Source: a virus. From it: a stretch of DNA of 43,573 nt. Location of the stretch: the IMG/VR virus record IMGVR_UViG_3300031696_000016, positions 1 through 43,573 of that record; one strand, given 5' to 3'. The position numbers and the translations under genes were made by a program. This document shows, in pieces, positions 1 through 11,875 of this stretch (its first letter is position 1; each line of letters starts with the position of its first letter). The notes under the pieces were generated by a model. That model had not been told where the DNA came from. It saw nothing but the letters and a program-made list of their open reading frames with translations, and did not search any database.

Positions 1-10
1 AAAAGATTAT
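1..10 (-). promoter_or_regulatory. Partial copy of the putative phage promoter, cut by the window edge
   Basis: Read on the minus strand, bases 12-1 give AGATAATCTTTT. This matches the first half of the 16-bp motif ATCTTTTAAGTACCTT found intact at 38-53 (minus), 3143-3158 and 7790-7805. The rest would lie left of base 1. It suggests two tandem leftward copies about 45 bp apart. Only about ten bases are visible, so this is a weak call that depends on the sequence beyond the edge. Confidence 0.3.
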
Positions 11-29
11 CTGAGAGAAAACCCTTAGT

Positions 30-56
30 GTTCCTATAAGGTACTTAAAAGATTAC
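30..56 (-). promoter_or_regulatory. Putative leftward promoter for the T7-like RNA polymerase
   Basis: On the minus strand this reads GTAATCTTTTAAGTACC then TTATAGGAAC. The 16-base core recurs exactly before the rIIA operon (3143-3158) and before the operon at 7838 (7790-7805), both on the plus strand. The TTTTA-(7 nt)-TATAG arrangement resembles SP6- and T7-class promoters, which suits the phage-encoded T7-like polymerase. It points left, out of the window. If the genome map closes on itself, it faces the leftward late genes whose 5' end lies beyond base 43573. Repetition is seen; promoter function is inferred. Confidence 0.5.
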
Positions 57-93
57 AGAAGTTTATCTCAAGGATACACGGGTAAGTCCCTAT

Positions 94-135
94 ATATCAA
101 GGTACCCTTCATACTTCAGGGACCCCCCTTGATAT
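94..135. repeat. Large inverted repeat
   Basis: ATATCAAGG (94-102) is perfectly complementary to CCTTGATAT (127-135). The inner arms GGTACCC (101-107) and GGGACC (119-124) extend the helix imperfectly, leaving a loop of about 11 nt. No T-run follows on either strand, so it is not a standard terminator. It lies in the gene-free control region between the leftward promoter-like copies and the tandem array. It could be a protein-binding site, a replication structure or an RNA structure in a late leader; the sequence does not decide. Confidence 0.55.
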
Positions 136-295
136 CCCTCAGAACTCCCCAAGAATCCCTAAGGATCCTTTAGTAATCACCTAGAACTACAGAAGGGTTG
201 TGTGTTCTGTTGTAGTCCCGAGGGGTACCGGGGGATAGCCCAAAGAACTCCCAAAGAAGTACATATATACCCATACATACACAATGTATTACAGC

Positions 296-391
296 AGTAC
301 TAACATAGTCCTAACATAGTCCTAACAGTAGTCCTAACAGTAGTCCTAACATAGTCCTAACATAGTCCTAATATAGTCCTAATATAGTCCT
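296..391. repeat. Tandem array of about nine 11/12-bp units (AGTCCTAACAT)
   Basis: Units start at 296, 307, 318, 330, 342, 353, 364, 375 and 386. The type unit is AGTCCTAACAT. Two units have one extra base (AGTCCTAACAGT), the first has AGTAC, two have AATAT, and the last is partial. There is no spacer and no gene. The array resembles the short-repeat arrays beside the terminal repeats of T7-like phages, and also iterons near replication origins. It may therefore mark a genome end, a packaging or processing site, or an origin. Confidence 0.85.
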
Positions 392-412
392 CAAGGAATA
401 GCCGAAACACTG

Positions 413-557
413 CATACTAAAGACATTGACTAATAGTGTACTCAGACATGTCTCACTTCGTGAGCCAGAGCTGTCTGACTTAGTTCATACTAAAGACATT
501 GACTAATAATATACTCAGACATGTCTCACTTCGTGAGCCAGAGCTGTCTGACTTAGT
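413..557. repeat. 72-bp tandem direct repeat with internal hairpins
   Basis: Bases 413-484 are repeated at 486-557 with two mismatches and a 1-bp spacer. Each copy contains CATTGACTAATA, then an outer inverted pair (CAGACA / TGTCTG) enclosing a small hairpin CTCAC-TTC-GTGAG (452-464 in the first copy). Near-identity implies a recent or conserved duplication. There is no ORF in it. It sits just upstream of the first early hairpin promoter (566-588), so a role in transcription or replication control is plausible but not shown. Confidence 0.85.
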
Positions 558-565
558 ATTGACTT

Positions 566-588
566 GGAGCCTTTGGCTCCTTTAAGGT
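566..588 (+). promoter_or_regulatory. Putative early hairpin promoter 1 (virion RNAP type)
   Basis: GGAGCC (566-571), loop TTT (572-574) and GGCTCC (575-580) form a 6-bp stem with a 3-nt loop, followed by TTTAA and GG at 586. The known N4 virion-RNAP promoter has a 5-bp stem, a 3-nt loop purine-rich on the template strand, a short T-tract and a GG start about 11 nt from the loop centre. Here the template loop is AAA and the spacing is 13. It lies 42 bp before the first early gene and is related to the sites at 868 and 1321. A second small hairpin, GGTACT/AGTACC (586-603), follows directly. Confidence 0.5.
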
Positions 589-629
589 ACTACTTTCAGT
601 ACCACCAACTCATCCAAGAGGATTAGCCC

Positions 630-818
630 ATGAGTCTTGCAATTCCAGTCCAAATCTCCACAGGACTTAAAAACCGTGGTTCCATCTACATTCAAATCAA
701 GAACGGTAACGTGTACCGTTTGATCAAGAATGTAGCTCCATTCAAAGCACAGGTCATGATGAACACCATCATGTCTAAGAAGTCAGTGGCTCTCAAGCAC
801 TGGGTTCGTGTACGTTAA
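630..818 (+). CDS. Early 62-aa protein of unknown function
   Basis: This is the first gene of the rightward set, starting after GAGGATTAGCCC with a good ribosome-binding site. The product is small and basic, with no cysteine and no membrane segment. It has one compact region (GSIYIQIKNGNVYRLIKN) that looks like beta strands, followed by a Lys/Arg-rich end. I recognise no family. It forms its own transcription unit: a hairpin promoter candidate lies at 566-588 and a strong terminator at 822-850. First-expressed small phage proteins often act on host functions, but nothing in the sequence shows this. Confidence 0.8.
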   Translation: MSLAIPVQISTGLKNRGSIYIQIKNGNVYRLIKNVAPFKAQVMMNTIMSKKSVALKHWVRVR

Positions 819-821
819 CCC

Positions 822-850
822 AAAGGACTCTTGCGAGTCCTTTTCTTTTT
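822..850 (+). terminator. Rho-independent terminator after the first early gene
   Basis: AAAGGACTC (822-830), loop TTGC (831-834) and GAGTCCTTT (835-843) form a perfect 9-bp stem followed by TTTTCTTTTT. It lies 4 bp after the stop codon at 818 and just before the next hairpin promoter candidate. The early genes therefore appear to be separate transcription units. Confidence 0.9.
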
Positions 851-867
851 ATACTCATCTCTGACCT

Positions 868-897
868 TACGGCCAGAGCCTTTGGCTCCTATTGGGT
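868..897 (+). promoter_or_regulatory. Putative early hairpin promoter 2 (virion RNAP type)
   Basis: GAGCC (876-880), loop TTT and GGCTC (884-888) are followed by CTATT and GGG at 894-896, 12 nt from the loop centre. The 30 bases 868-897 match 1321-1350 at 28 positions, including the GGGT after the hairpin. A dedicated terminator (822-850) lies directly upstream, so this hairpin is not needed to end transcription. Its position 28 bp before a gene start, and the conserved GGGT downstream, favour a promoter. Confidence 0.6.
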
Positions 898-925
898 TCT
901 CAATTAACTAGTAAGGAGTAATAGT

Positions 926-1291
926 ATGGAACTGTTTAAGATAGTAGTAGCTGGTGGTCGGGAGTTCTCTGACTATGAGCTACTAAAGGCCAAGATGGAT
1001 AGCCTCATCAAGGCCAAGTCTCTCACTCATGAAGTCATCATCATCTCTGGTACTGCAAAAGGTGCTGATATGATGGGTGAGACTTATGCTGCTGATCGTC
1101 AGTTAAACATCATGAAGTTCCCAGCTCAATGGGAGTTACATGGTAAGTCAGCTGGTTACAAGCGTAATGTACAGATGTCTGCTGTTGCAGATGCTGTTGT
1201 TGTGTTCTGGGACGGTAAGTCCAAAGGCTCAAAGCATATGGTTGACATTTCCAAAGCTGCTGGATTACCACTCAGGGTAGTTCGGTACTAA
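926..1291 (+). CDS. DUF2493-type SLOG/Rossmann-fold protein
   Basis: 121 aa starting after AAGGAGTAATAGT. The N-terminal beta strand and loop KIVVAGGREF (residues 5-14) and the SGTAKGAD motif (41-48) are the nucleotide-binding signatures of DUF2493 proteins in the SLOG/DprA-like superfamily. The later region with HGKSAGYKRNVQM is also typical. Members probably bind nucleotides or nucleotide-derived ligands; the substrate is unknown. It is an early gene here, between hairpin promoter candidates 2 and 3. An early nucleotide-sensing or host-takeover role is inference only. Confidence 0.85.
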   Translation: MELFKIVVAGGREFSDYELLKAKMDSLIKAKSLTHEVIIISGTAKGADMMGETYAADRQLNIMKFPAQWELHGKSAGYKRNVQMSAVADAVVVFWDGKSKGSKHMVDISKAAGLPLRVVRY

Positions 1292-1320
1292 CCTAAGGAA
1301 CTTCCGACTGTTCTGGTCAA

Positions 1321-1350
1321 TACGGCCAGAGCCTTCGGCTCCTTTTGGGT
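1321..1350 (+). promoter_or_regulatory. Putative early hairpin promoter 3 (virion RNAP type)
   Basis: GAGCC (1329-1333), loop TTC and GGCTC (1337-1341) are followed by CTTTT and GGG at 1347-1349, 12 nt from the loop centre; the template-strand loop is GAA. This is the closest match to the published N4 promoter layout of 5-bp stem, 3-nt loop, TTTT and GG. It shares 28 of 30 bases with 868-897. Because it has TTTT and follows the DUF2493 gene, it could also serve as that gene's terminator. Confidence 0.55.
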
Positions 1351-1379
1351 ATTAAATAAAACAATACCTATGTGAAGCT

Positions 1380-1430
1380 GTTGGATTCTCCAACCTCTCA
1401 CACCAATTAAATTCCACCAAGTGGAAAGGA
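1380..1430 (+). promoter_or_regulatory. Leader hairpins flanking the ribosome-binding site of the early SSB-like gene
   Basis: Two stem-loops lie in the 5' leader: GTTGG/CCAAC (1380-1394, 5-nt loop) and TTCCAC/GTGGAA (1412-1426, 3-nt loop). The second abuts the AGGA ribosome-binding site (1427-1430) of the SSB-like gene starting at 1439. A structure there could modulate translation. Some phage ssDNA-binding proteins, such as T4 gp32, repress their own mRNA, but autoregulation here is only inferred. Confidence 0.35.
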
Positions 1431-1438
1431 TAATCATT

Positions 1439-1855
1439 ATGTCAGATTTTAAAGTTGTACGTAACATCACCATCGTTAACACTCGCATGATCACACCTGT
1501 CACACGTGACTTTGGTGACCAGTATTCAATCCTTGCAAGTGGTACAAGCTTGCAGGAAGTTGGTATCAAAGCCAATAAGGATGGATCAGGTTGGATCAAC
1601 TCCAACGCAAGCTACCCAAATGGTGATTCCATTCCTAACATCCCTATGGTAGACCGTTCTAAACGTGCTATCACTACGGAGTTGGGTGCTGGTTCACAGG
1701 TAGAGTTAGCTTTCAGAGTGGTTAAGACTGCCAAAGGCACGTACCACAACCTTGCCGCTGTTAAGGTTATGAAACTGGTAAAACCGTTTAACATCTTAGA
1801 CGTCTTTGACGAAGCAGAAGAGATCACTGAAGAAGATGTTCTCGATTCATTCTAA
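1439..1855 (+). CDS. Early SSB-like protein with acidic, Phe-terminated tail
   Basis: 138 aa. I chose ATG 1439 because AAAGGA lies just upstream; a GTG 18 bases earlier lacks a ribosome-binding site. The body is beta-rich with basic residues (RSKRAITTELGAGSQVELAFRVVKT) and looks OB-fold-like. The last 18 residues are strongly acidic and end in SF, like the acidic aromatic-ended tails of SSB and T7 gp2.5. Neighbours are early hairpin promoter 3 and a strong terminator. N4 early transcription depends on SSB, so an early SSB fits a virion-RNAP phage. SSB identity is inferred from composition and tail, not from a clear family motif. Confidence 0.6.
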   Translation: MSDFKVVRNITIVNTRMITPVTRDFGDQYSILASGTSLQEVGIKANKDGSGWINSNASYPNGDSIPNIPMVDRSKRAITTELGAGSQVELAFRVVKTAKGTYHNLAAVKVMKLVKPFNILDVFDEAEEITEEDVLDSF

Positions 1856-1868
1856 CATAGCACCACAC

Positions 1869-1902
1869 GGAGGCTCCTAACGGAGTCTCCTGCCTTTTTT
1901 TT
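1869..1902 (+). terminator. Rho-independent terminator ending the early region
   Basis: GGAGGCTCC (1869-1877) pairs with GGAGTCTCC (1882-1890) over nine positions with one G-U, with loop TAAC and then TGCC plus eight T residues. It lies 13 bp after the SSB-like stop codon and closes the block of three early genes. Confidence 0.9.
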
Positions 1903-1944
1903 ACACACTGTTCAATATCCCACTTAAGTTAAGAGGAATTAACC

Positions 1945-2067
1945 ATGTCACATCAAGAAGAGTATCATAATAAAATAGCAGAACGACAATCAGATGAAGA
2001 AACTGTAGATACGCAGTTAGATAACCTAATAGAATACGTCTTTGGTGAGTTCAGAGAGGTAGAGTAA
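1945..2067 (+). CDS. Small acidic 40-aa protein
   Basis: An ATG at 1945 follows AAGAGGAATTAACC. The 40-residue product (MSHQEEYHNKIAERQSDEET... ending FGEFREVE) is highly charged, mostly acidic and probably helical. Its stop overlaps the next start (TAATG at 2065-2069), indicating translational coupling. It is the first gene after the early terminator. I recognise no family and assign no function. Confidence 0.6.
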   Translation: MSHQEEYHNKIAERQSDEETVDTQLDNLIEYVFGEFREVE

Positions 2068-2249
2068 TGTTTGTACTCTTAGTATTGCTGTTCGCAGCAG
2101 ATAATCAAGACTTCTTAAAGCAAGTAGAAGTCAATAAAAATCAAGGAATGGAATGGACATATGTTGGGCCGAAAGAACCAACAAATAGTCCGTACATACC
2201 TATCGTAAAAGAAGATGGTACTGAAATCATCTTGTTTAAAATGAAGTGA
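2067..2249 (+). CDS. Small protein with hydrophobic N-terminus (60 aa)
   Basis: The start overlaps the stop of the preceding 40-aa gene, with GAGGT upstream. Residues 1-11 (MFVLLVLLFAA) are hydrophobic, either a short membrane anchor or a truncated signal-like segment. The rest is soluble, with WTYVGPKEPTNSPYIPIVKEDGTEI. No family is recognised. Coupling to the upstream gene suggests the two are made together. Confidence 0.6.
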   Translation: MFVLLVLLFAADNQDFLKQVEVNKNQGMEWTYVGPKEPTNSPYIPIVKEDGTEIILFKMK

Positions 2250-2279
2250 TAAACTAAATGATAACCAAAAGGAATAATC

Positions 2280-2564
2280 ATGTTCATACTACATCTGATA
2301 ATGCAGAACAACTGCAAACATACAGTGTTTGTGGAAGAGAACAAGCGATTGGAAGCAATTCCAACTGCTATTGCTCACCTAAAAGCGGAAGCTTCTGGAC
2401 TAGCAGCAGAAATAATTATCTGCAACGAGCAAAACATGCCACTAAACTACCATACTATAAAAGGAACTTCCGATGGAATACATATGGATGAAAACCCGTG
2501 GCTATGGATGGGAATGGGTTTGTTGTTAGCAACATTGCTGTTCCCTTGGTTACTATTGTATTAA
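2280..2564 (+). CDS. 94-aa protein with C-terminal membrane segment
   Basis: It starts at 2280 after AAAAGGAATAATC. The N-terminal two thirds are soluble and partly helical. The C-terminus (WLWMGMGLLLATLLFPWLLLY, about residues 74-94) is a clear transmembrane helix ending at the last residue, as in tail-anchored small proteins. A second frame over 2258-2491 is a shadow without the membrane end. It lies immediately before the structured RNA at 2571. No family is recognised. Confidence 0.6.
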   Translation: MFILHLIMQNNCKHTVFVEENKRLEAIPTAIAHLKAEASGLAAEIIICNEQNMPLNYHTIKGTSDGIHMDENPWLWMGMGLLLATLLFPWLLLY

Positions 2565-2570
2565 AGCTTT

Positions 2571-2813
2571 ACGACACCCTGTAGCCATGTACATGGTTTA
2601 CTTTGTAATTCCCCGAAAGTAGTACGGGTATAGACAGGGTGTCACCCTAGCCGCGTTAGGTTGCTCCTAACTAGTACGGTTTACAGCTCCGTATGATTGA
2701 AGTGGTGTCGCAGTCACAACAAAAGAGGTCGATGCAAGTATGCCGTCATCGTGTATGGCGTTAGTGAGAAGAGGTGGAGCGAAAGCTTAGAAACCGTTAT
2801 CGCATACACACCC
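2571..2813 (+). ncRNA. Structured non-coding RNA of unknown class
   Basis: This gene-free stretch folds densely. GACACCCTGT (2573-2582) pairs perfectly with ACAGGGTGTC (2634-2643) over 10 bp. Inside lie a CCAT/ATGG hairpin (2585-2596) and an H-type pseudoknot candidate: ACTTT 2600-2604 with AAAGT 2616-2620, and CCCG 2612-2615 with CGGG 2625-2628. The 3' half has GTTAGG/CCTAAC (2655-2671), TACGG/CCGTA (2675-2693) and GTGTATGgCG (2751-2760) with CGCATACAC (2801-2809), the last enclosing an AGC-GAAA-GCT tetraloop hairpin (2778-2787). No tRNA, tmRNA or riboswitch signature is recognised. Strand is assumed from the flanking genes. Confidence 0.6.
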
Positions 2814-2844
2814 TTTTACCAACAAAACCAACAGGATGCACATT

Positions 2845-3120
2845 ATGCGCAGAGTAGATATACTTAAACAACAACTTCAAAGCAGCCGTGGACGTTTCTT
2901 CACAGCAACCTACAAAACCAGTGTAGGTCCAATGCTTACTCTTAACTTCAAAGTCAATGAAGTAATGTCAATAAAAACTAACCAGATCAAATGTAAGGTG
3001 TACATACCTTCTATCATGCGATCTCAAGTTATGATCTTTGATATAGGTAAATCAGGTGACCTGCAATATCTAGCAGCAGATCGAAGCAAGATCAGCATGT
3101 CAGGTAAAGGTCTACTATAA
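2845..3120 (+). CDS. 91-aa protein of unknown function
   Basis: I chose ATG 2845 because ACAGGA (2831-2836) sits about 8 nt upstream; the earlier ATG at 2836 overlaps that site. The product is basic and beta-rich (GRFFTATYKTSVGPMLTLNFKV), with no membrane segment and one cysteine. It follows the structured RNA by about 30 bp, so the RNA could be its 5' leader and regulate it. No family is recognised. Confidence 0.6.
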   Translation: MRRVDILKQQLQSSRGRFFTATYKTSVGPMLTLNFKVNEVMSIKTNQIKCKVYIPSIMRSQVMIFDIGKSGDLQYLAADRSKISMSGKGLL

Positions 3121-3126
3121 CAATCA

Positions 3127-3161
3127 GGTACTTAGGAGAATAATCTTTTAAGTACCTTTAG
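3127..3161 (+). promoter_or_regulatory. Putative T7-like-RNAP promoter within a hairpin, upstream of rIIA
   Basis: TAATCTTTTAAGTACCTTTAG (3141-3161) shares the 16-base core ATCTTTTAAGTACCTT with 7790-7805 and with the leftward site at 38-53. Its TAAGTACC (3149-3156) is also complementary to GGTACTTA (3127-3134), giving an 8-bp stem with a 14-nt loop. The site is 26 bp before the rIIA-like gene. A promoter for the phage T7-like RNAP is the favoured reading; a processing hairpin is the alternative. Confidence 0.5.
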
Positions 3162-3186
3162 CACATCAAACCAATAGGTAAAAACA

Positions 3187-5277
3187 ATGCAATTATCCAA
3201 CTATGGTAACGCAGCGCAAGTAATAGGTGTACAACACACTCAACAATTCCAAATGCAAATGAACGCTAAAATGTTCAGCATCTTAACCGATAAACTGTAT
3301 CAAAACAAAGAAGGTGCAGTAATCCGTGAGCTATCCGCTAACGCAAGAGATGCACATGTTGCCGCAGGTAAATCAGAGTTACCATTTCATATCACCTTAC
3401 CTTCATGGATCTCAACAGAATTCAAGATACGTGACTTCGGTACTGGCATAGATCCTGATGAATTCTATGATATATACACAAACCTTGGACACTCTACCAA
3501 AGACCATGAAGATACCTCAATCGGTGCTTATGGCTTAGGTTCAAAGACTCCATTTGCTATCACTGACAGTTACACAATACGTAACTACTGGAATGGCATG
3601 GTGTATGTGTATACTGCATTTAAAGATTCAGGTATGCCCACAGTATCCCTCATAGGTTCAGAGACTTCTGATGAAGTTAATGGCCTTGAGATCAGTGTTG
3701 ACATTGGTAGTGACGGTAATGTGTCTTCTTTCCGCAGACAATGTGGAGAACAATTAGGATACTTCGATGTAAAACCAATCATACATAACTATGATGACTT
3801 CGAGTGGCCTGAAATACCTGAACTACACATGGGGTATGATGTAAAAGCTGGACACTATTCTTCTGAGATTACGATTGTAATGGGCGGTATACCTTATACC
3901 TCACCTACAAGATCGCTTCCAGAAGAATTAAAAAGTTCTATTTACCGACTAGACGTAACCCTTGTAGCAAAGCTAGGTGAAGTGGATATACCACCATCAA
4001 GAGAGTCATTAGAACTAACAGCTAAGACTATTGCATTCATTTCTAGTAAAATTGTAGAAATATCAGAAGACTACGTAATAGACTTCGCATATAGGATAGA
4101 ACATGCAGATAATGACCTTCAACTTAACGCCATACTACTTAGTAGGATAGACGAATGGCTAAAAACTAAAGACTTCAATGTATCAAATTACGAATACAAA
4201 AAGCTCAAATACTCAGGTGAAACTCTTACAGAAATAGTTAACAAAGAATTAACAATGTTCAATGCAAAGAAAAACATTAAACATTATAAAAGTCTTAGAA
4301 ATAACTACAATGGTTGTTCAGTAGGAACAATTGTGCAAATGTTAAGAAACTACAGCAATTCAAGTAGTAACGGAGATGGAAATTCTCTATATTTGAACGA
4401 CCTGTCACCAAGAGCTAACAAAGTAATAAATGAGAATAAATATTCATTAAGTAGTAACAGTGTCGTTATCTTCCCTAATGAAAGAAAATCAAAAATGTTC
4501 TCAAACGCTGCAAATGAAGCCTATGTAAAGCTAAAAGAGCTAGGTTTTGAACCAATAAAGTTATCAACGCTTATGTCAATGCCTGTTGTACTTAAAAATA
4601 CAACAAAGAGTAAAAGCTACAACAAGCCTGATCAAATATTCTTAACAAACCATAGGCATGGCGATGTAATTAAAACTTCAATAGGAGAACTACCAGAAGA
4701 AGGTTATTTTGTAACAATGTCCAACTGGACAATGAGCCAAAAAGACTCATACATATCGTGTGTACACAGTGTACTTGACTTAGACGTATATGCGCTCAGA
4801 AGTCATGCACAACAAGCAGCATCTCGTTCAGGTAAATGGACTTCAATCCATAAGCTAGCAAATAAAGTAATCAAAGGCTTAACTGCAAAACTAAAAAGAG
4901 CAAAAGATGCTGAAGAAACGTTAAGGGTTCTGAGTACACACTTAAACTGTGGACCATTATTTGATGTGTACATAGAAAAAGTAGAACTAAACCCTAAGAG
5001 AAAACTAGCAAAGCTTATTAAAAGTTGTAGAGAAGCACAAGTAGAATTTGATAACTCTCGTCTAACAAGGCAAGAAGAATATCAAATCGTAGACTTAGCT
5101 ATACCTGAATATAAGTCAGAAGCTAAACCACCAGCGTACATAGTAAGGTACGCAAATGAAACGTCTGATAAATGGTCTCATATTATCAATTCAACATTCT
5201 ACTTCAACAGGTGGAATGATGAAGGTAAAGCAGCATTACGTCAGGCACTTAATCTAATTGAAGGTAATTTCAAATGA
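3187..5277 (+). CDS. rIIA: rIIA-like GHKL ATPase-domain protein
   Basis: 696 aa. The N-terminal domain has the GHKL ATP-binding motifs: IRELSANARDAH (E48, N52, D55), DFGTG (83-87) and SIGAYGLGSK (111-120). These are typical of rIIA-like phage proteins and related to the Hsp90/MutL fold. The C-terminal half is long, lysine-rich and unassigned. In T4, rIIA and rIIB are membrane-associated and affect lysis inhibition and exclusion by prophages; the role in podoviruses is unknown. The stop overlaps the rIIB-like start by 4 bp (ATGA), so the pair is translationally coupled. Confidence 0.85.
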   Translation: MQLSNYGNAAQVIGVQHTQQFQMQMNAKMFSILTDKLYQNKEGAVIRELSANARDAHVAAGKSELPFHITLPSWISTEFKIRDFGTGIDPDEFYDIYTNLGHSTKDHEDTSIGAYGLGSKTPFAITDSYTIRNYWNGMVYVYTAFKDSGMPTVSLIGSETSDEVNGLEISVDIGSDGNVSSFRRQCGEQLGYFDVKPIIHNYDDFEWPEIPELHMGYDVKAGHYSSEITIVMGGIPYTSPTRSLPEELKSSIYRLDVTLVAKLGEVDIPPSRESLELTAKTIAFISSKIVEISEDYVIDFAYRIEHADNDLQLNAILLSRIDEWLKTKDFNVSNYEYKKLKYSGETLTEIVNKELTMFNAKKNIKHYKSLRNNYNGCSVGTIVQMLRNYSNSSSNGDGNSLYLNDLSPRANKVINENKYSLSSNSVVIFPNERKSKMFSNAANEAYVKLKELGFEPIKLSTLMSMPVVLKNTTKSKSYNKPDQIFLTNHRHGDVIKTSIGELPEEGYFVTMSNWTMSQKDSYISCVHSVLDLDVYALRSHAQQAASRSGKWTSIHKLANKVIKGLTAKLKRAKDAEETLRVLSTHLNCGPLFDVYIEKVELNPKRKLAKLIKSCREAQVEFDNSRLTRQEEYQIVDLAIPEYKSEAKPPAYIVRYANETSDKWSHIINSTFYFNRWNDEGKAALRQALNLIEGNFK

Positions 5278-6035
5278 ATATAATCACAGATCACTCAGTA
5301 ACACTCTTTGACAATCTAAAACCTGTCACAGTAACAGAATCCCATGCTCTGTTTGAGAAAATCAAAGATCTAGTGTCACAGGGTAACTATGATGAAGCCC
5401 TGAACATGATTGACAACAGGCGTACAGCTAAGAAAGCAATAGCTAATACTGACTTTGAGTTAGTAGGTGACTGCTTGTACCTAGACGACTACCGAATCCC
5501 TGACAACATGGCTTCGCGTATCTTCGATCTAATGGGTAGCTATAACTCTGTAAAGCCATTAGAACGGTTCTTCCGTAATCTGTTAAGCAACCCATCATAT
5601 CGTGCAGTTCAAGAGTTATACGGCTTTCTAGAGCTGTCTAAACTACCAATCACAGATGATGGTCATTTCGTTGCGTACAAAGCAGTAAACCAAGACTACA
5701 AAGACTGCTTTACAAACAGTATGGATAACAGCATAGGTGCACAACCTACCATGCCACGTAATCTAGTAGACGAAGATAAAAATCGTACATGCTCTGCAGG
5801 TCTGCACTTTGCAGGATATGAGTATGCACGTGGGTTTGTAGATCGTGACGGTCACCTTATGGCTGTACGTATCAACCCTAAAGATGTGGTCGCTATCCCT
5901 TCAGATTACCACAACATGAAAGGTCGTGCATCAAGCTACCTTGTTGTAAATGAGATAGAAGGTATGAACGACACACTAACAGACACGCCTCTGTATAAAG
6001 GCGACTTCGAAGCACAATCATCACTATCACTATAA
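5274..6035 (+). CDS. rIIB: rIIB-like protein
   Basis: 253 aa, starting 4 bp inside the rIIA stop with GAAGG upstream. The central and C-terminal part carries the rIIB-like pattern FVAYKAVNQDYKDCFT, then a CSAGLHFAGYEYA motif and VRINPKDVVAIPSDY, all shared with rIIB-like proteins of many phages. It is probably a partner of the preceding rIIA-like ATPase. Its biochemical activity is not known from the sequence. Confidence 0.85.
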   Translation: MNIITDHSVTLFDNLKPVTVTESHALFEKIKDLVSQGNYDEALNMIDNRRTAKKAIANTDFELVGDCLYLDDYRIPDNMASRIFDLMGSYNSVKPLERFFRNLLSNPSYRAVQELYGFLELSKLPITDDGHFVAYKAVNQDYKDCFTNSMDNSIGAQPTMPRNLVDEDKNRTCSAGLHFAGYEYARGFVDRDGHLMAVRINPKDVVAIPSDYHNMKGRASSYLVVNEIEGMNDTLTDTPLYKGDFEAQSSLSL

Positions 6036-6051
6036 TCCAAAGGATATACAA

Positions 6052-6522
6052 ATGTCAGACACAAACTTAGGCACAAGCATTTTACGCAATGTGACACTTA
6101 ACTACTTAAAAGTAGACCCATCAAAGCCAGTAAGTCCTTTTGGCACACTTCAATGGGAAGTTCAAATCGAAGTACCAGAAAACCGAGCTGATGAGATTTC
6201 AGAAATGGGTAAGCTACGAACCTTGGACAACGGGAACGTAGCGGTTAACATCAAGCGTAAAGCTTTAAAACATGACGGTTCTGCTAACTTCCCAGTAGCA
6301 CTTGTAGATGCTAAGAAGAATACAATCGAAGTGTTCAACAACATCGGCAATGGTTCCACAGGTAACGTTAAAGTATATCGAAATGAATACGATGTAGCTG
6401 GTCGTCAGGGTATCTCAACAAGTCTTAGTGCAATCCAAATCACTAACCTAATTGAGTACACAGGATCAGTAGATTTCGACATTGAAAGTGATGATGCTGT
6501 AGCAACACATGATGATTTTTAA
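6052..6522 (+). CDS. Second SSB-like protein
   Basis: 156 aa, starting after AAAGGATATACAA. The beta-rich body has regularly spaced basic residues (VAVNIKRKALKH). The acidic C-terminal segment (FDIESDDAVATHDDF) ends in DDF, like the tails of T7 gp2.5 and bacterial SSB that bind replication partners. It is the last gene of the rIIA operon and is followed by a strong terminator. It probably coats ssDNA during replication. It differs in sequence from the early SSB-like protein at 1439, so the phage may use two. Confidence 0.65.
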   Translation: MSDTNLGTSILRNVTLNYLKVDPSKPVSPFGTLQWEVQIEVPENRADEISEMGKLRTLDNGNVAVNIKRKALKHDGSANFPVALVDAKKNTIEVFNNIGNGSTGNVKVYRNEYDVAGRQGISTSLSAIQITNLIEYTGSVDFDIESDDAVATHDDF

Positions 6523-6530
6523 ATAAATAT

Positions 6531-6560
6531 AAAGGGGCCTGAAAAGGTCCCTTTGTTTTT
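6531..6560 (+). terminator. Rho-independent terminator after the second SSB-like gene
   Basis: AAAGGGGCC (6531-6539), loop TGAAAA and GGTCCCTTT (6546-6554) form a 9-bp stem with one G-U, followed by GTTTTT. It lies 8 bp after the stop and separates the rIIA operon from the GP88 operon. Confidence 0.9.
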
Positions 6561-6578
6561 AAATCAAGTGACAAAGGA

Positions 6579-6686
6579 ATGTACCAGAAGTACCTAAAAG
6601 GACCATTGAGACAGGCTCATATGGTATTTGTAATACCTACAATAATGATTATATCTTTCATTCTTAATATAATCGACAGGAAGTAA
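6579..6686 (+). CDS. Possible 35-aa single-span membrane peptide
   Basis: An ORF of 35 residues ends 1 bp before the next gene. Its C-terminal half (MVFVIPTIMIISFILNII) is a convincing membrane helix. The ATG at 6579 touches AAAGGA with no spacer, so a shorter form from ATG 6621 (21 aa, AGG upstream) is as likely. The first 25 bases overlap a promoter-like motif. Coding status is uncertain. Confidence 0.3.
   Translation: MYQKYLKGPLRQAHMVFVIPTIMIISFILNIIDRK
6588..6604 (+). promoter_or_regulatory. Weak candidate copy of the T7-like-RNAP promoter motif
   Basis: AAGTACCTAAAAGGACC resembles the 3' half of the repeated motif (AAGTACCTTATAGGAAC at the left end, AAGTACCTTAAAGAAC at 7797), but the upstream ATCTTTT half is missing. 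It follows the terminator at 6531-6560 and precedes the GP88 gene, where a new promoter would be expected. Confidence 0.3.
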
Positions 6687-6687
6687 G

Positions 6688-7338
6688 ATGATTAAACTCT
6701 CCAAAACAAGTAAGATGCCACGTAAATGTAAATCATGGTCATTGGAAGCCTTGAAGACATGCCCCGGAAGTATTAAAGCAATCATAAAAGGAATTATAGA
6801 ACTTGTAGATGCATGTAAAGGTTGTTACGCAACCACAGGTATGTACAATATGCCCAATGTTAAAGCCCCAAGAATACATAATAAAGAAGATTGGAAACGT
6901 AAGGATTGGGTTGATAATATGGTAGAAGCAATATTCAATGATGAACTATTTCGATGGTTTGACAGCGGTGATTGCTATGACCTCAGATTAGCTAAGAAGA
7001 TTAAAAAAGTTATCTCAAGAACACCAAGAACTAAACATTGGTTTCCAACAAGACAACACAAATTCCCTAAATTCGCCAAAGTATTAGCTGAAATAGCTGA
7101 ACTGCCAAATGCAGTTGTACGTCTATCCTCAGATTCTATCAATGGTGGAATTATAAAAGGTGATACAACATCAACCATCTGGAGTACAAAGCCACCTAAA
7201 GAAGCTTTCGAATGTGGTGCTTATACAAGAGAAGGTAAATGTGGAGATTGTAGAGCCTGTTGGGATAAATCAGTAAAAGTAGTGGCATACCCCGGTCATG
7301 GGGCTAAAATGCTTAAAGTAATCAGAATACAAGGGTAA
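6688..7338 (+). CDS. GP88-like Cys-rich phage protein
   Basis: 216 aa, starting after AGGAAGTAAG. The N-terminus SKTSKMPRKCKSWSLEALKTCPGS and the following CKGCYATTGMY resemble the phage gene-product-88 family first described in mycobacteriophages. The C-terminal CGAYTREGKCGDCRACWD adds a four-cysteine cluster. The conserved cysteines suggest metal binding or an iron-sulfur site. No activity is established for the family as far as I know. It is paired with the SleB-like hydrolase gene 6 bp downstream. Confidence 0.75.
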   Translation: MIKLSKTSKMPRKCKSWSLEALKTCPGSIKAIIKGIIELVDACKGCYATTGMYNMPNVKAPRIHNKEDWKRKDWVDNMVEAIFNDELFRWFDSGDCYDLRLAKKIKKVISRTPRTKHWFPTRQHKFPKFAKVLAEIAELPNAVVRLSSDSINGGIIKGDTTSTIWSTKPPKEAFECGAYTREGKCGDCRACWDKSVKVVAYPGHGAKMLKVIRIQG

Positions 7339-7344
7339 TAAATT

Positions 7345-7755
7345 ATGTTAGAAGCAGTCATGTGTTTGGCCTTAAACCTATACTTTGAGGCAAGAGACCA
7401 ACCAGTAGTGGGTCAACTAGCAGTCGGTTTTAGTACAATGAACAGGGTCAAAGATGAACGTTATCCAGACACTGTATGTGAAGTAGTCAAACAAGCTAAA
7501 TACCATGCATGGGATATGGAAAACCCCATAAGACACAAATGTCAATATTCTTGGTTTTGTGATGGAATGTCTGACGTACCTACAAACGACAAAGCTATGC
7601 TAGAAGCGACCATTCTAGCTGCTAACATTTTCTATGGCAAAGTAACTGATATATCAACTGGAGCAACACACTACCATGCAACCTATGTAAACCCATACTG
7701 GGCAGACCATATGACAGTCCTTTTCAGGATAGATGATCATATCTTTTATAGATAA
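7345..7755 (+). CDS. SleB-type cell wall hydrolase
   Basis: 136 aa with the Hydrolase_2/SleB pattern throughout: LALNLYFEARDQP (E15 is the likely catalytic acid), GQLAVGFSTMNRV, YPDTVCEVV, CQYSWFCDG and GATHYHATYVNPYW. It has no signal peptide, so it would need a holin or act inside the cell. It is placed among middle genes, far from the late lysis cassette that has its own M15 endolysin. In T7 the amidase gp3.5 is also a middle protein and binds the phage RNAP; a similar second role here is speculation. Confidence 0.85.
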   Translation: MLEAVMCLALNLYFEARDQPVVGQLAVGFSTMNRVKDERYPDTVCEVVKQAKYHAWDMENPIRHKCQYSWFCDGMSDVPTNDKAMLEATILAANIFYGKVTDISTGATHYHATYVNPYWADHMTVLFRIDDHIFYR

Positions 7756-7766
7756 ATTACAAAGCC

Positions 7767-7812
7767 TTGACATCTAGGTTAATCTCTAGATCTTTTAAGT
7801 ACCTTAAAGAAC
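7767..7812 (+). promoter_or_regulatory. Putative T7-like-RNAP promoter upstream of the 7.8-kb operon
   Basis: GATCTTTTAAGTACC then TTAAAGAAC (7789-7812) carries the exact 16-base core found at 3143-3158 and, inverted, at 38-53. Just upstream, ATCTAG (7772-7777) pairs with CTAGAT (7786-7791) in a 6-bp stem. A perfect sigma70 -35 box TTGACA occurs at 7767-7772 but has no good -10 at 16-18 bp. The site precedes the long operon that includes the RNR, replication and RNAP genes. Confidence 0.5.
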
Positions 7813-7837
7813 TTAAATAACTAAGGAGTAACCTAAG

Positions 7838-8332
7838 ATGAAAGAACACGTTAAGTACGTGGAAGGAATTGTAAAACCTGAAAACCTAACAAAGAAACCT
7901 AAAATAGCAATCACAGAATCTTCACTTGCAAACCTTAAACCTAAATGGGATAAGGAACATATGAAGATGATGTCAAAGAAAAGCATTGAAAAGCGTAGGT
8001 CCAACAAAGAAGCACGTGAAAAGATGAAAGAAACTGTAGAAATACTAAAGTATCTTTCAGATGGTGTAATCAGTAACATGCCCTCTGGCTTAACTGTAAT
8101 GCAAATCATGATGCTCAGAGCTATTCAAGATGGTGACCCTGCAGAAGCCTCAAAACTTGCTGCAACTATTGCTGAATACCAACAACCTAAACTGCAACGT
8201 ACCGAGAATATCAACACAAACATTAACTTAGAAGACTTAACTGATGAGGAATTAGCTCAACAACTAGCAATCATCAATGAGCCTATACTAAAACCACTAA
8301 AAGATATTGAAGGTGAAGTAGTAAATGACTAG
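7838..8332 (+). CDS. Possible small terminase-like or other DNA-binding protein
   Basis: 164 aa, starting after AAGGAGTAACCTAAG. The N-terminal half is very basic and helical (HMKMMSKKSIEKRRSNKEAREKMKETVEILK). The C-terminal part (MLRAIQDGDPAEASKLAATIAEYQQPK, then NLEDLTDEELAQQLAII) resembles the oligomerisation and linker segments of phage small terminase or DUF5681-like proteins. No large terminase lies nearby to support this. Its stop overlaps the next start. Confidence 0.5.
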   Translation: MKEHVKYVEGIVKPENLTKKPKIAITESSLANLKPKWDKEHMKMMSKKSIEKRRSNKEAREKMKETVEILKYLSDGVISNMPSGLTVMQIMMLRAIQDGDPAEASKLAATIAEYQQPKLQRTENINTNINLEDLTDEELAQQLAIINEPILKPLKDIEGEVVND

Positions 8333-8465
8333 CTATAACAACATAACTGGTGATGCACTTGTATCTAAAAGCAACACTAATAAGTTCAGAGATAACTATG
8401 ACAAGATATTCTCTAAACCTGATAAGGAAAAGAAAGATGAAAGAAAACTTAAAAGAGTTCCTTAG
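8325..8465 (+). CDS. Small basic 46-aa protein
   Basis: ATG 8325 lies inside the end of the preceding gene, with GAAGGTG upstream. The product is polar and lysine-rich (KPDKEKKDERKLKRVP at the C-terminus) and probably disordered. It overlaps the next small ORF by 29 bp. No family is recognised. Confidence 0.5.
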   Translation: MTSYNNITGDALVSKSNTNKFRDNYDKIFSKPDKEKKDERKLKRVP

Positions 8466-8529
8466 TGGGTTTATATATATCGGACTTATATTATCACCAA
8501 TAGTAATCTTATCAACAATAATATGGTGA
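8437..8529 (+). CDS. 30-aa single-span membrane peptide
   Basis: ATG 8437 overlaps the 3' end of the 46-aa gene in another frame, with GGAAAAGAAAG upstream. The sequence MKENLKEFLSGFIYIGLILSPIVILSTIIW is a short charged N-terminus followed by one hydrophobic helix ending in Trp. The overlap and clear membrane helix support translation, but peptides this small are hard to prove. It could modulate the host membrane. Confidence 0.4.
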   Translation: MKENLKEFLSGFIYIGLILSPIVILSTIIW

Positions 8530-8534
8530 CATAA

Positions 8535-8801
8535 ATGCGTGGAAGAGTAAACAAAGATATGCTGACTGCAATCCAAAAAAGCTTTGACAGTAAAATTGGA
8601 ATTGAAGTTAAAATGATCCTAGTCCCTGAAGATTACCACAGAGCAATCCAAAGGGACAGTGAGTTCTTAGAGATCCTTGATGCTAATGGCATTGAAGATT
8701 GGGTTTCATACGATGAGTGTGTAGCTGAGCATGATAGAAACATAGCTGAATCAGAAACAGAAGGTGAAGAATATGCACACGGGAATCGTTTTCAGACCTA
8801 A
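8535..8801 (+). CDS. 88-aa acidic protein of unknown function
   Basis: It starts at ATG 8535, 6 bp after the preceding peptide, with a weak ribosome-binding site. It has a basic N-terminus (MRGRVNKDML) and an acidic C-terminal third (ECVAEHDRNIAESETEGEE), with no membrane segment. It overlaps the next gene by 29 bp. No family is recognised. Confidence 0.6.
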   Translation: MRGRVNKDMLTAIQKSFDSKIGIEVKMILVPEDYHRAIQRDSEFLEILDANGIEDWVSYDECVAEHDRNIAESETEGEEYAHGNRFQT

Positions 8802-9009
8802 GATAGGTGACCACCTACGTAAAGCAGAAAATGTAAGTGTAAATAGCTACACTACAGAAGAAATACAAGAACTAGTAGCACTACGAGCTGCAAATGTATC
8901 TTACACAGACTGTAGTCTTAAGCTTTCCAAGTCTATTGGTAGTATTGGTAATATGATTCACTACTATAAACTTCAACCTAAGATAGATGAAGCCAAAGGA
9001 CTATTATGA
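8773..9009 (+). CDS. Small helix-turn-helix protein
   Basis: 78 aa from ATG 8773, preferred over a GTG at 8764 because AAGGTG lies 7-12 bp before it. Residues about 28-62 (YTTEEIQELVALRAANVSYTDCSLKLSKSIGSIGNMI) match the helix-turn-helix pattern of GcrA/SigA-r4-like small regulators, with turn and recognition helix KLSKSIGSIGNMIHYY. It probably binds DNA and could regulate phage or host genes. It overlaps the methyltransferase start by 4 bp (ATGA). Confidence 0.65.
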   Translation: MHTGIVFRPKIGDHLRKAENVSVNSYTTEEIQELVALRAANVSYTDCSLKLSKSIGSIGNMIHYYKLQPKIDEAKGLL

Positions 9010-9752
9010 GTATTGTAATTTCATTATATGACTACACAGGTGTCGCTGCAATCCCTTGGGCTAAAGCAGGGCATACTTGTTACTGCTTCGACATACAGCA
9101 TGAAGGAGACAGTTGGGAGAAAGCACGTGTTGATAAGTATGAAAGTGGTGGAGCAATCTACTACTTACATGCAGACCTACATGACTATAAATCAATAAAT
9201 GACTTATGGATTGACTTTAACGATAGAGATGAAGATATTGTATTCGCAATGGCCTTCCCTGTATGCACTGACTTAGCTGTAAGTGGTGCTGCATGGTTTA
9301 AAGCTAAATACTTCAAAGACCCTCAGTTCCAAAGAAAAGCAGTAGGGTACGCAACATGGTGTGCTGAGTTGTTTAACGATCTCAAAGTACCATATTACAT
9401 AGAAAACCCAGTGTCAGTCCTGTCAACTAAGTGGCGTCAACCAGACTATCGTTTCCACCCATATGAATACGGTGGTTACATCAAAGAAGGTGAAGAAATA
9501 CACCCACTGTATCCAAAGTACATTGCACCAAAAGATGCATACTCTAAAAGAACATGTTTATGGACAGGTGGTAAGTTCAAAATGCCAGCAAAAGATCCAG
9601 TACCTTGTGAAAGTTACGGTTCAAGTGCACAACACAGAAAGCTTGGAGGTAAATCAATGAAGACAAAGAACATAAGGTCAGCGACTCCAAGAGGATTCGC
9701 AGAAGCCGTGTATCAAGCTAATAAAAAGCAATGTGTACAATATGAAATGTGA
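9006..9752 (+). CDS. C5-cytosine DNA methyltransferase-like protein
   Basis: 248 aa. It has a Rossmann-type start (VISLYDYTGVAAIPWAKAGH), FPVC at residues 84-87 as the PC catalytic motif, YIENPVSVL (132-140) as the EN motif, and SATPRGFAEAVYQAN at the C-terminus where motif X-like sequence is expected. It would methylate cytosine in DNA with S-adenosylmethionine, possibly to resist host restriction. It is short for a C5 enzyme and its target domain is reduced. No cognate restriction gene is nearby. Confidence 0.75.
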   Translation: MSIVISLYDYTGVAAIPWAKAGHTCYCFDIQHEGDSWEKARVDKYESGGAIYYLHADLHDYKSINDLWIDFNDRDEDIVFAMAFPVCTDLAVSGAAWFKAKYFKDPQFQRKAVGYATWCAELFNDLKVPYYIENPVSVLSTKWRQPDYRFHPYEYGGYIKEGEEIHPLYPKYIAPKDAYSKRTCLWTGGKFKMPAKDPVPCESYGSSAQHRKLGGKSMKTKNIRSATPRGFAEAVYQANKKQCVQYEM

Positions 9753-10182
9753 ACAAATGAAGTTATTCACAGAAAACATAAAAGTATCATCTGAAAACCC
9801 TGCATGTAAAGATACAAAAACATGCTCCAAGTGTAAAAACAACCTACCTACTTCATACTTTGGACCATCAGGTGGAGGTACTTATCTTAGAGCAGAGTGT
9901 AAATCATGTAACAATGAGTTAGGTAAGGTACGTAGTCGTCTTAAATCTATACATGGCTCTCCTCCAATAGATTACAAATGCCCTGTGTGTTTATGTAATG
10001 AGGAAGAAGCAAAAGGAAGAGGTGGTAGAGCAGGTTCTTGGGTTCTCGACCATGACCATAGTACGGAAGAATTCAGAGGATGGTTATGTCATAGCTGCAA
10101 CAGAGCATTAGGTGGGTTCAATGATAATATTCCTCGTATGAAAAGAGCCATTAAATATATAAAAGGAAACTTACAAAACTAA
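9742..10182 (+). CDS. Recombination endonuclease VII-like protein
   Basis: 146 aa from ATG 9742; the start is uncertain because no strong ribosome-binding site is visible, and GTG 9733 or ATG 9757 are possible. Paired cysteines C28/C31, C53/C56 and C80/C83 precede LDHDHSTEEFRGWLCHSCNR (102-121), the His-Me nuclease and zinc signature of T4 endonuclease VII (gp49). It probably resolves branched DNA before packaging, a job done in T7 by the unrelated gp3 nuclease. It overlaps the methyltransferase end by 11 bp. Confidence 0.85.
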   Translation: MKCEQMKLFTENIKVSSENPACKDTKTCSKCKNNLPTSYFGPSGGGTYLRAECKSCNNELGKVRSRLKSIHGSPPIDYKCPVCLCNEEEAKGRGGRAGSWVLDHDHSTEEFRGWLCHSCNRALGGFNDNIPRMKRAIKYIKGNLQN

Positions 10183-10203
10183 AACTACAGGAGTACAAAG
10201 TAA

Positions 10204-10536
10204 ATGGATCTAGATATTATGAAAATAGAACCTTGGTTCGATGACTTCGGAGATACGGATAAACTAACTGATGATATTACCGTTAAAGAATGGAAATCTA
10301 GTGTAAAAGCAAATGCAACAAACTCACAAGTAGGTGGTGATCATTATAAAAATCAAGGAATACAACCACTTGAAGCTACCTTTGCTAACTTCGGTTATGA
10401 AGGTGTACGTGCATCGATATACACAAAAGTAGGTAAATACCTGACAAGAGATAAAGATTCACATCGTCAAGATATAACAAAAGCTATTCACGTATTACAA
10501 ATGCAACTAGAGTTCCTAGACAGAGACAATAAATGA
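10204..10536 (+). CDS. DUF3310-family protein
   Basis: 110 aa, starting after AGGAGTACAAAGTAA. Residues about 41 onward (QVGGDHYKNQGIQPLE, then YTKVGKYLTRDK and DITKAIHVLQMQLEFL) match the DUF3310 pattern common in phages. These are often labelled nucleotide kinases, but I see no P-loop. It overlaps the next start by 4 bp. Confidence 0.8.
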   Translation: MDLDIMKIEPWFDDFGDTDKLTDDITVKEWKSSVKANATNSQVGGDHYKNQGIQPLEATFANFGYEGVRASIYTKVGKYLTRDKDSHRQDITKAIHVLQMQLEFLDRDNK

Positions 10537-10787
10537 TAATTACAATGGTAACTGAAATACTTTGGCTGGCAACAGCACTTGCAGTCTTCTCTTCAGTAAT
10601 ACTATTCATACTAAACCCACTGTATGCCTTTTGGATAGAAAACAAATACAATATGGATTTAGAAAGTGAAATATACCAAAAAGTATCAGAAGCTGTAGAG
10701 TCAGCAGCAGAAGACGGATCAATAATAAGCATTAACATCATAGTCGGAGAACCAGAAGTTGAAGAAGCCTCAAAAGAAAAAGATTAA
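10533..10787 (+). CDS. 84-aa inner-membrane protein
   Basis: The start overlaps the DUF3310 stop. One long hydrophobic segment (about residues 5-33, EILWLATALAVFSSVILFILNPLYAFWI) is followed by an acidic soluble tail. No family is recognised. The PhoH gene begins inside its 3' end. Confidence 0.6.
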   Translation: MIITMVTEILWLATALAVFSSVILFILNPLYAFWIENKYNMDLESEIYQKVSEAVESAAEDGSIISINIIVGEPEVEEASKEKD

Positions 10788-11457
10788 AGTTCCCAGTAAC
10801 TCATTAGGATTACAAGCTCTATCTCAGAATCAATCACATTACATAAACTCAATAGATAATTATGTAGTATCAGTTGGTACTGGGTTCGCAGGTTCAGGTA
10901 AAACATATATCGCATCTACATGTGCTGCTCAATTTATGATTGACAACAAAGATAGCCGTATCGTTCTATGCAGACCTAATGTATCTGATTCAAAATCTAT
11001 AGGCTTCTTACCCGGAGAAGAACTCGACAAAATGGCACCTTGGATTACCCCATACACTGACATACTCCGTAAGCATCTAAATGGTACTTATGAAAAAGCT
11101 ATGCAATCAGGGGCAATCCAAGTAGTTCCCTTTGAATACATGCAAGGTAGGACATTCGATAACTCGTTTGTAATACTAGACGAAGCACAACACACTACAC
11201 CTAAAGAAATAGAAATGTTCTTAAAGCGTATAGGTAAAGATTCAAAAGTAGTTATATGTGGTGACATACCTCAAGCAAGATTAGGCCCTAAATCAGGTCT
11301 TAATCTTATTATTAAAATGCACACCGATAAGGCGTTACCAGAAGTATCTGATAATATTGGAATAACTGACTTCAATAACCCTGACGACATTGTAAGATCT
11401 GTATTCTGCCGTGAGATAACTAAAGCATTTGACAGGCACTATGCTATGGGAGGGTGA
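10759..11457 (+). CDS. phoH: PhoH-like ATPase
   Basis: 232 aa. The only reasonable start is TTG 10759 with GGAGA about 9 nt upstream, inside the previous gene; the next ATG would remove the P-loop. Walker A GFAGSGKT (42-49) and Walker B FVILDEAQH (137-145), plus GDIPQARLG, define PhoH. The family has predicted ATPase/RNA-helicase-like activity and is common in marine phages; its benefit to phage is not settled. It is followed 3 bp later by a 56-aa gene. Confidence 0.9.
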   Translation: MKKPQKKKIKVPSNSLGLQALSQNQSHYINSIDNYVVSVGTGFAGSGKTYIASTCAAQFMIDNKDSRIVLCRPNVSDSKSIGFLPGEELDKMAPWITPYTDILRKHLNGTYEKAMQSGAIQVVPFEYMQGRTFDNSFVILDEAQHTTPKEIEMFLKRIGKDSKVVICGDIPQARLGPKSGLNLIIKMHTDKALPEVSDNIGITDFNNPDDIVRSVFCREITKAFDRHYAMGG

Positions 11458-11459
11458 CA

Positions 11460-11630
11460 ATGTTAATAAACACAAAGGAATGGGTAGACTGTCTCGTAAT
11501 AAGATATAACAAAGGTAAACCAATACTACTGCAAGATATCTTAGGTGAACAAGAAAGAAATAAACTAGCAAACCTTATAGACGGATTAACCATCATAAGG
11601 ATAGACGAAGCACTGAGCAATGAAGATTAA
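11460..11630 (+). CDS. 56-aa protein of unknown function
   Basis: ATG 11460 follows GGAGGGTGACA, which overlaps the PhoH end. The product (MLINTKEWVDCLVIRYNKGKP... ending ALSNED) is soluble and likely helical. It sits between phoH and the glutaredoxin-like gene in the RNR operon. A strong ribosome-binding site and tight spacing support it. No family is recognised. Confidence 0.65.
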   Translation: MLINTKEWVDCLVIRYNKGKPILLQDILGEQERNKLANLIDGLTIIRIDEALSNED

Positions 11631-11641
11631 CGAGGCCGTAA

Positions 11642-11875
11642 ATGATTATAAAGTTTTACACAAAAGGATGCCAACCATGCTATGCACTGACAACACTTCT
11701 GGATAATATGATGGTTGAATACGTGTCTTGCGACATAGAAGAAGAATGGGTAATAGCTGCTGATAATAAAGTAATGAGTGTACCTACACTGCTAAACACT
11801 GAAACTGGTAAAAGACTTATTGGTTTCAAGAATGAAGAAAAAGTAAAGGAATTTCTAAATGACAATAACAGTTGA
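11642..11875 (+). CDS. Glutaredoxin/NrdH-like redox protein
   Basis: 77 aa with a thioredoxin-fold start IIKFYTKGCQPCYAL; the redox pair is C10/C13 in CQPC. The cis-Pro motif VPTLL and a C-terminal helix follow, matching the NrdH/glutaredoxin size. It overlaps the ribonucleotide reductase large-subunit start by 17 bp, so it is the likely electron donor for that enzyme. Confidence 0.85.
   Translation: MIIKFYTKGCQPCYALTTLLDNMMVEYVSCDIEEEWVIAADNKVMSVPTLLNTETGKRLIGFKNEEKVKEFLNDNNS

Follow-up and report, generated by a model that had tools for sequence, protein, structure and literature searches.

Three perfect hairpins with 5–6-bp stems and 3-nt loops lie at the left end of virus record IMGVR_UViG_3300031696_000016, whose 43,573 nt, analysed as a whole, are called the window below. 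The question is whether they are early promoters of the type used by the virion RNA polymerase (vRNAP) of phage N4. So far the extruded-hairpin promoter and the injected RNA polymerase (RNAP) of N4 have been taken to characterise a single phage family; promoters of this type depend on gyrase and SSB. We consider it quite probable that the window hairpins are early promoters of the kind used by the N4 vRNAP, in a phage group outside Schitoviridae; transcript, binding and virion-protein data are lacking.

Hairpins ahead of the early genes

Coordinates of the features discussed are collected in Table 1. A first-pass annotation, made from the sequence alone, had described the three hairpins, and recounting bore it out: positions, stem lengths and loop sizes agree exactly with the sequence, sites 2 and 3 are identical at 28 of 30 bases (868–897 versus 1321–1350) and one hairpin lies upstream of each early ORF. 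The annotation had placed GG(G) 12–13 nt from the loop centre; at site 1 the distance to the first G is 13 nt, and at sites 2 and 3 GGG spans 12–14 nt. Hairpin 1 is also found at the same place in L017, L040, L041 and G003.

Table 1. Features of the window and hairpin stems in related early regions
Feature	Position	Strand	Remarks
Two tandem 73-bp repeats	413–557	+	One CTCAC(TTC)GTGAG hairpin per repeat, template C(GAA)G; no GG at promoter distance (13 nt)
Hairpin 1	566–580	+	GGAGCC(TTT)GGCTCC, template loop AAA; upstream of 62-aa gene
Predicted start GG of hairpin 1 (inferred)	586–587	+	GG column invariant across the 16 aligned sites (6 genomes)
Early gene 1, 62 aa	630–818	+	Without family match
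Terminator-like hairpin plus TCTTTTT	822–843	+	3′ of early gene 1; terminator scan
Hairpin 2	876–888	+	GAGCC(TTT)GGCTC, template loop AAA; GGG at 894–896
Early gene 2, 121 aa	926–1291	+	YspA/cpYpsA-related SLOG family PF10686, 8e-16
Hairpin 3	1329–1341	+	GAGCC(TTC)GGCTC, template C(GAA)G; GGG at 1347–1349; satisfies N4-derived rule
Early gene 3, 138 aa	1439–1855	+	Kept in every early-region relative; C-terminal tail acidic
Terminator-like hairpin plus T-run	1869–1890	+	3′ of early gene 3; terminator scan
Second RNAP, 748 aa, T7-type	19335–21581	+	phrog_414 2.5e-105; PF00940 4.7e-52
Candidate virion RNAP, 1268 aa, no cysteine	22469–26275	−	Single-subunit RNAP motifs A, B, C
Neighbouring Cys-free proteins, 1440, 745, 486, 177 aa	26291–34858	−	Candidate ejection cassette
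G015 hairpin stems			GAGGC, GGAGCC, GGGGGC; loop TAC
G016 hairpin stems			GGTGGC twice; loop TAC
G017 hairpin stems			GCCAC three times; loop TAC
G019 hairpin stems			GGGTC twice; loop TGC

A scan of the window for C(TNY)G with a 5-bp stem and GG at 13 nt returned three matches, all of them these sites, against 0.15 per shuffled sequence. This rule was tuned on the window sites, and the relatives are the fair test.

Other repeated elements share the left end. The hairpins of the 73-bp repeats, at 452–464 and 525–537, also have 5-bp stems and 3-nt loops and were missed by the first-pass annotation; the repeat occurs in one to five copies in close relatives, and its length is about seven helical turns. 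An array of 11-bp repeats (AACATAGTCCT type) lies upstream of the hairpins at 301–393. The element TTCCTATAAGGTACTTAAAAGAT is found at 31–53 (+), 7790–7812 (−) and about 3145 (−) of the window, and almost all early-region relatives, L109 of a 55%-identity lineage included, have two tandem plus-strand copies upstream of their early genes; it might serve the 748-aa RNAP as a promoter or have a part in replication. The product of early gene 3 may be a ssDNA-binding protein, which is only a guess. Beyond the early genes, a 250-base ORF gap (2568–2820) has local hairpins; it gave no Rfam match and folds no better than its shuffles.

The N4 rule and the early regions of relatives

The N4 vRNAP promoter needs a C-G closing pair in the template strand and a loop with 5′ G and 3′ A, i.e. 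C(GNA)G, features that are also required for hairpin extrusion; its stem has 5–7 bp, the start lies 11 nt from the loop centre and an altered stem is tolerated if the hairpin is kept (PMC4496689). The search rule derived from these data was a template C(GNA)G loop, a stem of at least 5 bp and GG 10–14 nt from the loop centre. The distance was thus widened; at the exact 11 nt of N4 no site of the relatives passes. As a positive control, positions 1–12000 of N4 yielded exactly three sites (90, 557 and 4546), all with GG at 11 and each before an early gene. The first, GTTGC(GAA)GCAAC, is identical to the hairpin of the P1 oligonucleotide in PMC12633501, and by position and sequence the three sites can be identified as P1–P3.

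Related early regions were reached via early gene 3. Two or three hairpins occupy the corresponding places in each of four lineages (G015, G016, G017 and G019), with other stems (Table 1). The N4-derived rule detected 3, 2, 3 and 2 sites in them, respectively, with 0.015–0.067 expected in each by dinucleotide shuffling; taken together, there are 10 sites versus about 0.15 expected, all on the plus strand and all in the early region. No such hairpin was found in the early region of L109 and L110, the 55%-identity lineage.

An ungapped alignment of 16 sites from six genomes has invariant G1, C5, T6, G9, C13, G20 and G21, and GG stands 13 nt from the loop centre in every one of the 16. Stem pairing is kept in all 60 cells, 16 of which are changed on both sides; such double changes with kept pairing occur at three of the five stem positions. 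The sites were picked by perfect stems and the pairing count is partly given by construction and not independent, but how many sites there are, where they lie and how they are oriented and spaced does not depend on that selection. The comparison of leaders in related phages, proposed with the initial description, has thus come out in its favour.

The loop is genome-specific (TTT/TTC, TAC or TGC). Its central template base (−11) is A, a purine, at the three window sites and T or C in relatives, while in G015 the stems differ within the genome around a constant loop. A loop (nearly) constant within a genome, with stems that may differ, is the expected trace of one loop-reading polymerase per genome.

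The claim that the sites have N4 architecture is supported, with differences in detail. The template C(GNA)G mini-hairpin (site 3 and the 10 sites of the four relatives), the position before early genes, the fixed GG distance and stems that vary with pairing kept agree with it. The distance is 13 and not 11 nt, sites 1 and 2 have C(AAA)G instead, and the −8G of the N4 stem is replaced by C in the window, though it is present in G016 and in two G015 sites.

Short hairpins between early genes could also be intrinsic terminators. Site 3, alone of the three, passes a terminator scan (five pairs, CTTTT), and sites 1 and 2 have short T-rich spacers; yet separate and stronger terminators with long T-runs follow early genes 1 and 3, the first of them being the terminator already noticed ahead of site 2, and no early gene lies upstream of site 1. 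A T-tract is absent from the homologous sites of G019 and from most sites of G017, where CTATGTGG or CATTGTGG is found, and pairs of copies precede a single gene in G019 (54 bp apart) and in G015 (37 bp apart). Nor would a terminator need the invariant GG. With T-tracts missing from several of the sites, termination cannot account for them as a group, and we regard this explanation as very improbable; for the window, the first-pass annotation had argued likewise from the separate terminator.

We give little credence, too, to hairpins acting as RNA elements of 5′ leaders (in stability, protein binding or translation control) in transcripts made by host RNAP from upstream promoters. Leader hairpins with kept pairing are usual for RNA elements, the RNA folds equally well and DNA folding energies did not tell the two strands apart. 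On the other hand, the conserved features fit the needs of N4 at the DNA level (template C(GNA)G, fixed GG distance), and a leader element would leave the invariant GG at 13 nt unexplained. No sigma-70-like site was found on the plus strand of 157–1938, though host promoters may differ. An Rfam search gave no significant match.

A candidate virion RNA polymerase

The promoter reading calls for an enzyme, and the candidate is the 1268-aa protein. It has the motifs of single-subunit RNAPs: A, AQDGIANGL (D792); B, KPPLLTFVYG (K879, Y887); and C, PVYDE (D1097), the last matched by eye. The four residues are conserved down to 31% identity; the N4 vRNAP counterparts of the motifs are EADGVTNGP, KNPLTITIYG and KIFDG. 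Alignment by hhalign with 13 Schitoviridae vRNAP cores was moderate (E 3e-5, prob 73) and paired D792 with D559 and K879/Y887 with K670/Y678; shuffled, reversed and T7-type controls gave 0.02–0.67. The N4 vRNAP profile gave 5e-6 for the 1268-aa RNAP versus 1e-3 for the 748-aa RNAP. Cysteine is absent from the protein in all members examined, and the vRNAPs of LUZ7, LIT1 and PEV2 are likewise Cys-free (PMC3715699). Its gene lies next to further Cys-free genes of virion type, the candidate ejection cassette, in which the 486-aa protein has a weak lysozyme match.

A profile search of PDB sequences with the 1268-aa RNAP gave no match, tblastn against phages gave none and a scan of genome contigs for the protein gave none. 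AlphaFold2 models of residues 101–1268 and 560–1165 were unusable (pLDDT 36–37), and no fold search was made. Motifs, lack of cysteine, gene neighbourhood and the moderate profile match thus support assignment of the protein as a putative N4-like virion RNAP, an assignment of moderate homology without structure, biochemistry or virion data.

Both the RNAP and the early region are present only in the window, G003 and G013. The window and G003 have common hairpins and RNAPs 93% identical; in G013 early gene 3 is 89% identical, the RNAP only 31%, and these hairpins are missing. This single case is in line with joint exchange of hairpins and RNAP. Enzyme–promoter co-variation could be tested in three genomes only, because the sequences of the lineages with other stems are fragmentary and do not include the RNAP gene; a search for a longer contig holding both the G016 promoters and an RNAP found only the same contig. 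The earlier claim of a matching enzyme–promoter set is supported for the enzyme by the four lines given above; for the match itself there is only the joint presence in two genomes that are nearly identical and the absence of the hairpins from G013.

G013 has two related sites before early genes (L063 5855–5945), GTCGCTAGCTCCCACTCTGGTA and GTCGCTTCGCTCCCAAGGTGGTA, with template GC(GAA)GC and, in the second, flanking tandem G-A mismatches. As alternative sites of G013, GTCGCTTCGCTCCC and GTCGCTAGCTCCC have GC(GAA)GC with tandem G-A mismatches, with GG at 13 in one; there are two copies only. It is possible, as a weak lead, that the GC(GAA)GC sites are promoters of the divergent RNAP.

The indirect link between RNAP and hairpins leaves room for another protein (a replication initiator, SSB or the 748-aa RNAP) to use the sites, and the similar GG-free hairpins in the 73-bp repeats would suit it. 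At least one site per early gene, a single orientation and a constant GG distance speak against this, being the pattern that N4 vRNAP sites show as well; we think such a role highly unlikely.

The T7-type RNAP is presumed to be the middle/late enzyme. TerL (56%) and capsid (52%) of G003 are closest to those of Roseobacter phage CRP-7 (MK613349), the nearest isolate, and the 748-aa RNAP compares with CRP-7 at 38%. CRP-7 is an unclassified podovirus (Caudoviricetes), placed by its own authors with non-N4-like podoviruses. The marks of Schitoviridae, a giant vRNAP and a heterodimeric RNAPII, are not met by a 1268-aa RNAP and a single 748-aa RNAP, and judged by these comparisons the phage group is of CRP-7 type, outside Schitoviridae. 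On the 59.8-kb contig of G003 the early region adjoins TerL, as expected if it lies at the end of a linear genome; the physical ends are undetermined.

Proposed start of infection and known systems

We propose that on entry the 1268-aa RNAP, whose packaging in the virion is inferred, would find the left end of the phage DNA. Negative supercoiling would extrude the inverted repeats (again an inference), with the template strand forming compact 3-nt-loop hairpins, mostly C(GNA)G and, at window sites 1 and 2, C(AAA)G. Loop and stem would be read by the polymerase, if it binds them as we suppose, and RNA would start at a distance of 13 nt from the loop centre, at the GG, the exact start base being a prediction. 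Short one-gene early transcripts, two of them closed by terminators, would result, and the 748-aa RNAP would take over later, like RNAPII in N4.

We somewhat favour the broader view of a second, separate branch of ejected RNAPs with DNA-hairpin promoters outside Schitoviridae, with a compact virion RNAP, a 13-nt ruler and a loop-centre base (A, T or C, depending on the genome) that acts as a recognition code and changes along with the polymerase. Starting infection with an injected RNAP may then be more widespread than thought, extending to a marine phage that does not belong to the N4 family. Because stems, loops and spacing differ in a second lineage, its natural variants would help to show how the loop, the stem and the start distance are recognised. 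A compact virion RNAP that brings its own hairpin would also be of practical use for transcribing single-stranded DNA. A full-text literature search, limited to open-licence papers, found no report of an N4-like hairpin promoter with an injected RNAP outside the N4 family.

CRP-7 has the same genome layout and, in the RNAP position, a Cys-free 1235-aa protein, gp33. As a homologue of the 1268-aa RNAP gp33 was rejected for lack of detectable similarity, though it has a motif-C-like IHDALIT. No hairpin was found in CRP-7 with the N4 rule. Intergenic hairpins are seen at 300–1250 of CRP-7 (L084), CACACC TGTAATG GGTGTG and TCCTCC TGTAATG GGAGGG, with one loop and different stems; these might be the CRP-7 counterpart of the window hairpins.

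T7-type RNAPs have palm motifs A, B and C in common with the 1268-aa RNAP. The T7 enzymes, however, work on double-stranded promoters and do not travel in the virion.

LUZ7, LIT1, PEV2 and other Schitoviridae are similar to the window phage in 3-nt-loop hairpins before early genes and a Cys-free vRNAP (a candidate only in the window), and the early region of LUZ7 has C(GTA)G hairpins too. They differ in genome size (72–75 kb) and giant vRNAP, and ort11, JWAlpha and V12 of this family have GG at 11.

Relative to N4 itself, GG is at 13 nt in the window group and not at 11, the window lacks −8G and its sites 1 and 2 have AAA loops; the polymerase has 1268 aa and not about 3500 (N4 gp50 has N- and C-terminal domains), and one 748-aa chain stands where N4 has the heterodimeric RNAPII. 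Common to the window sites and N4 P1–P3 are the 3-nt loop, the 5–7-bp stem, template C(GNA)G (in the window at site 3 only), downstream GG and left-end early genes, and common to the candidate polymerase and gp50 are the single-subunit type, the DGxxNG of motif A and the absence of H from motif C.
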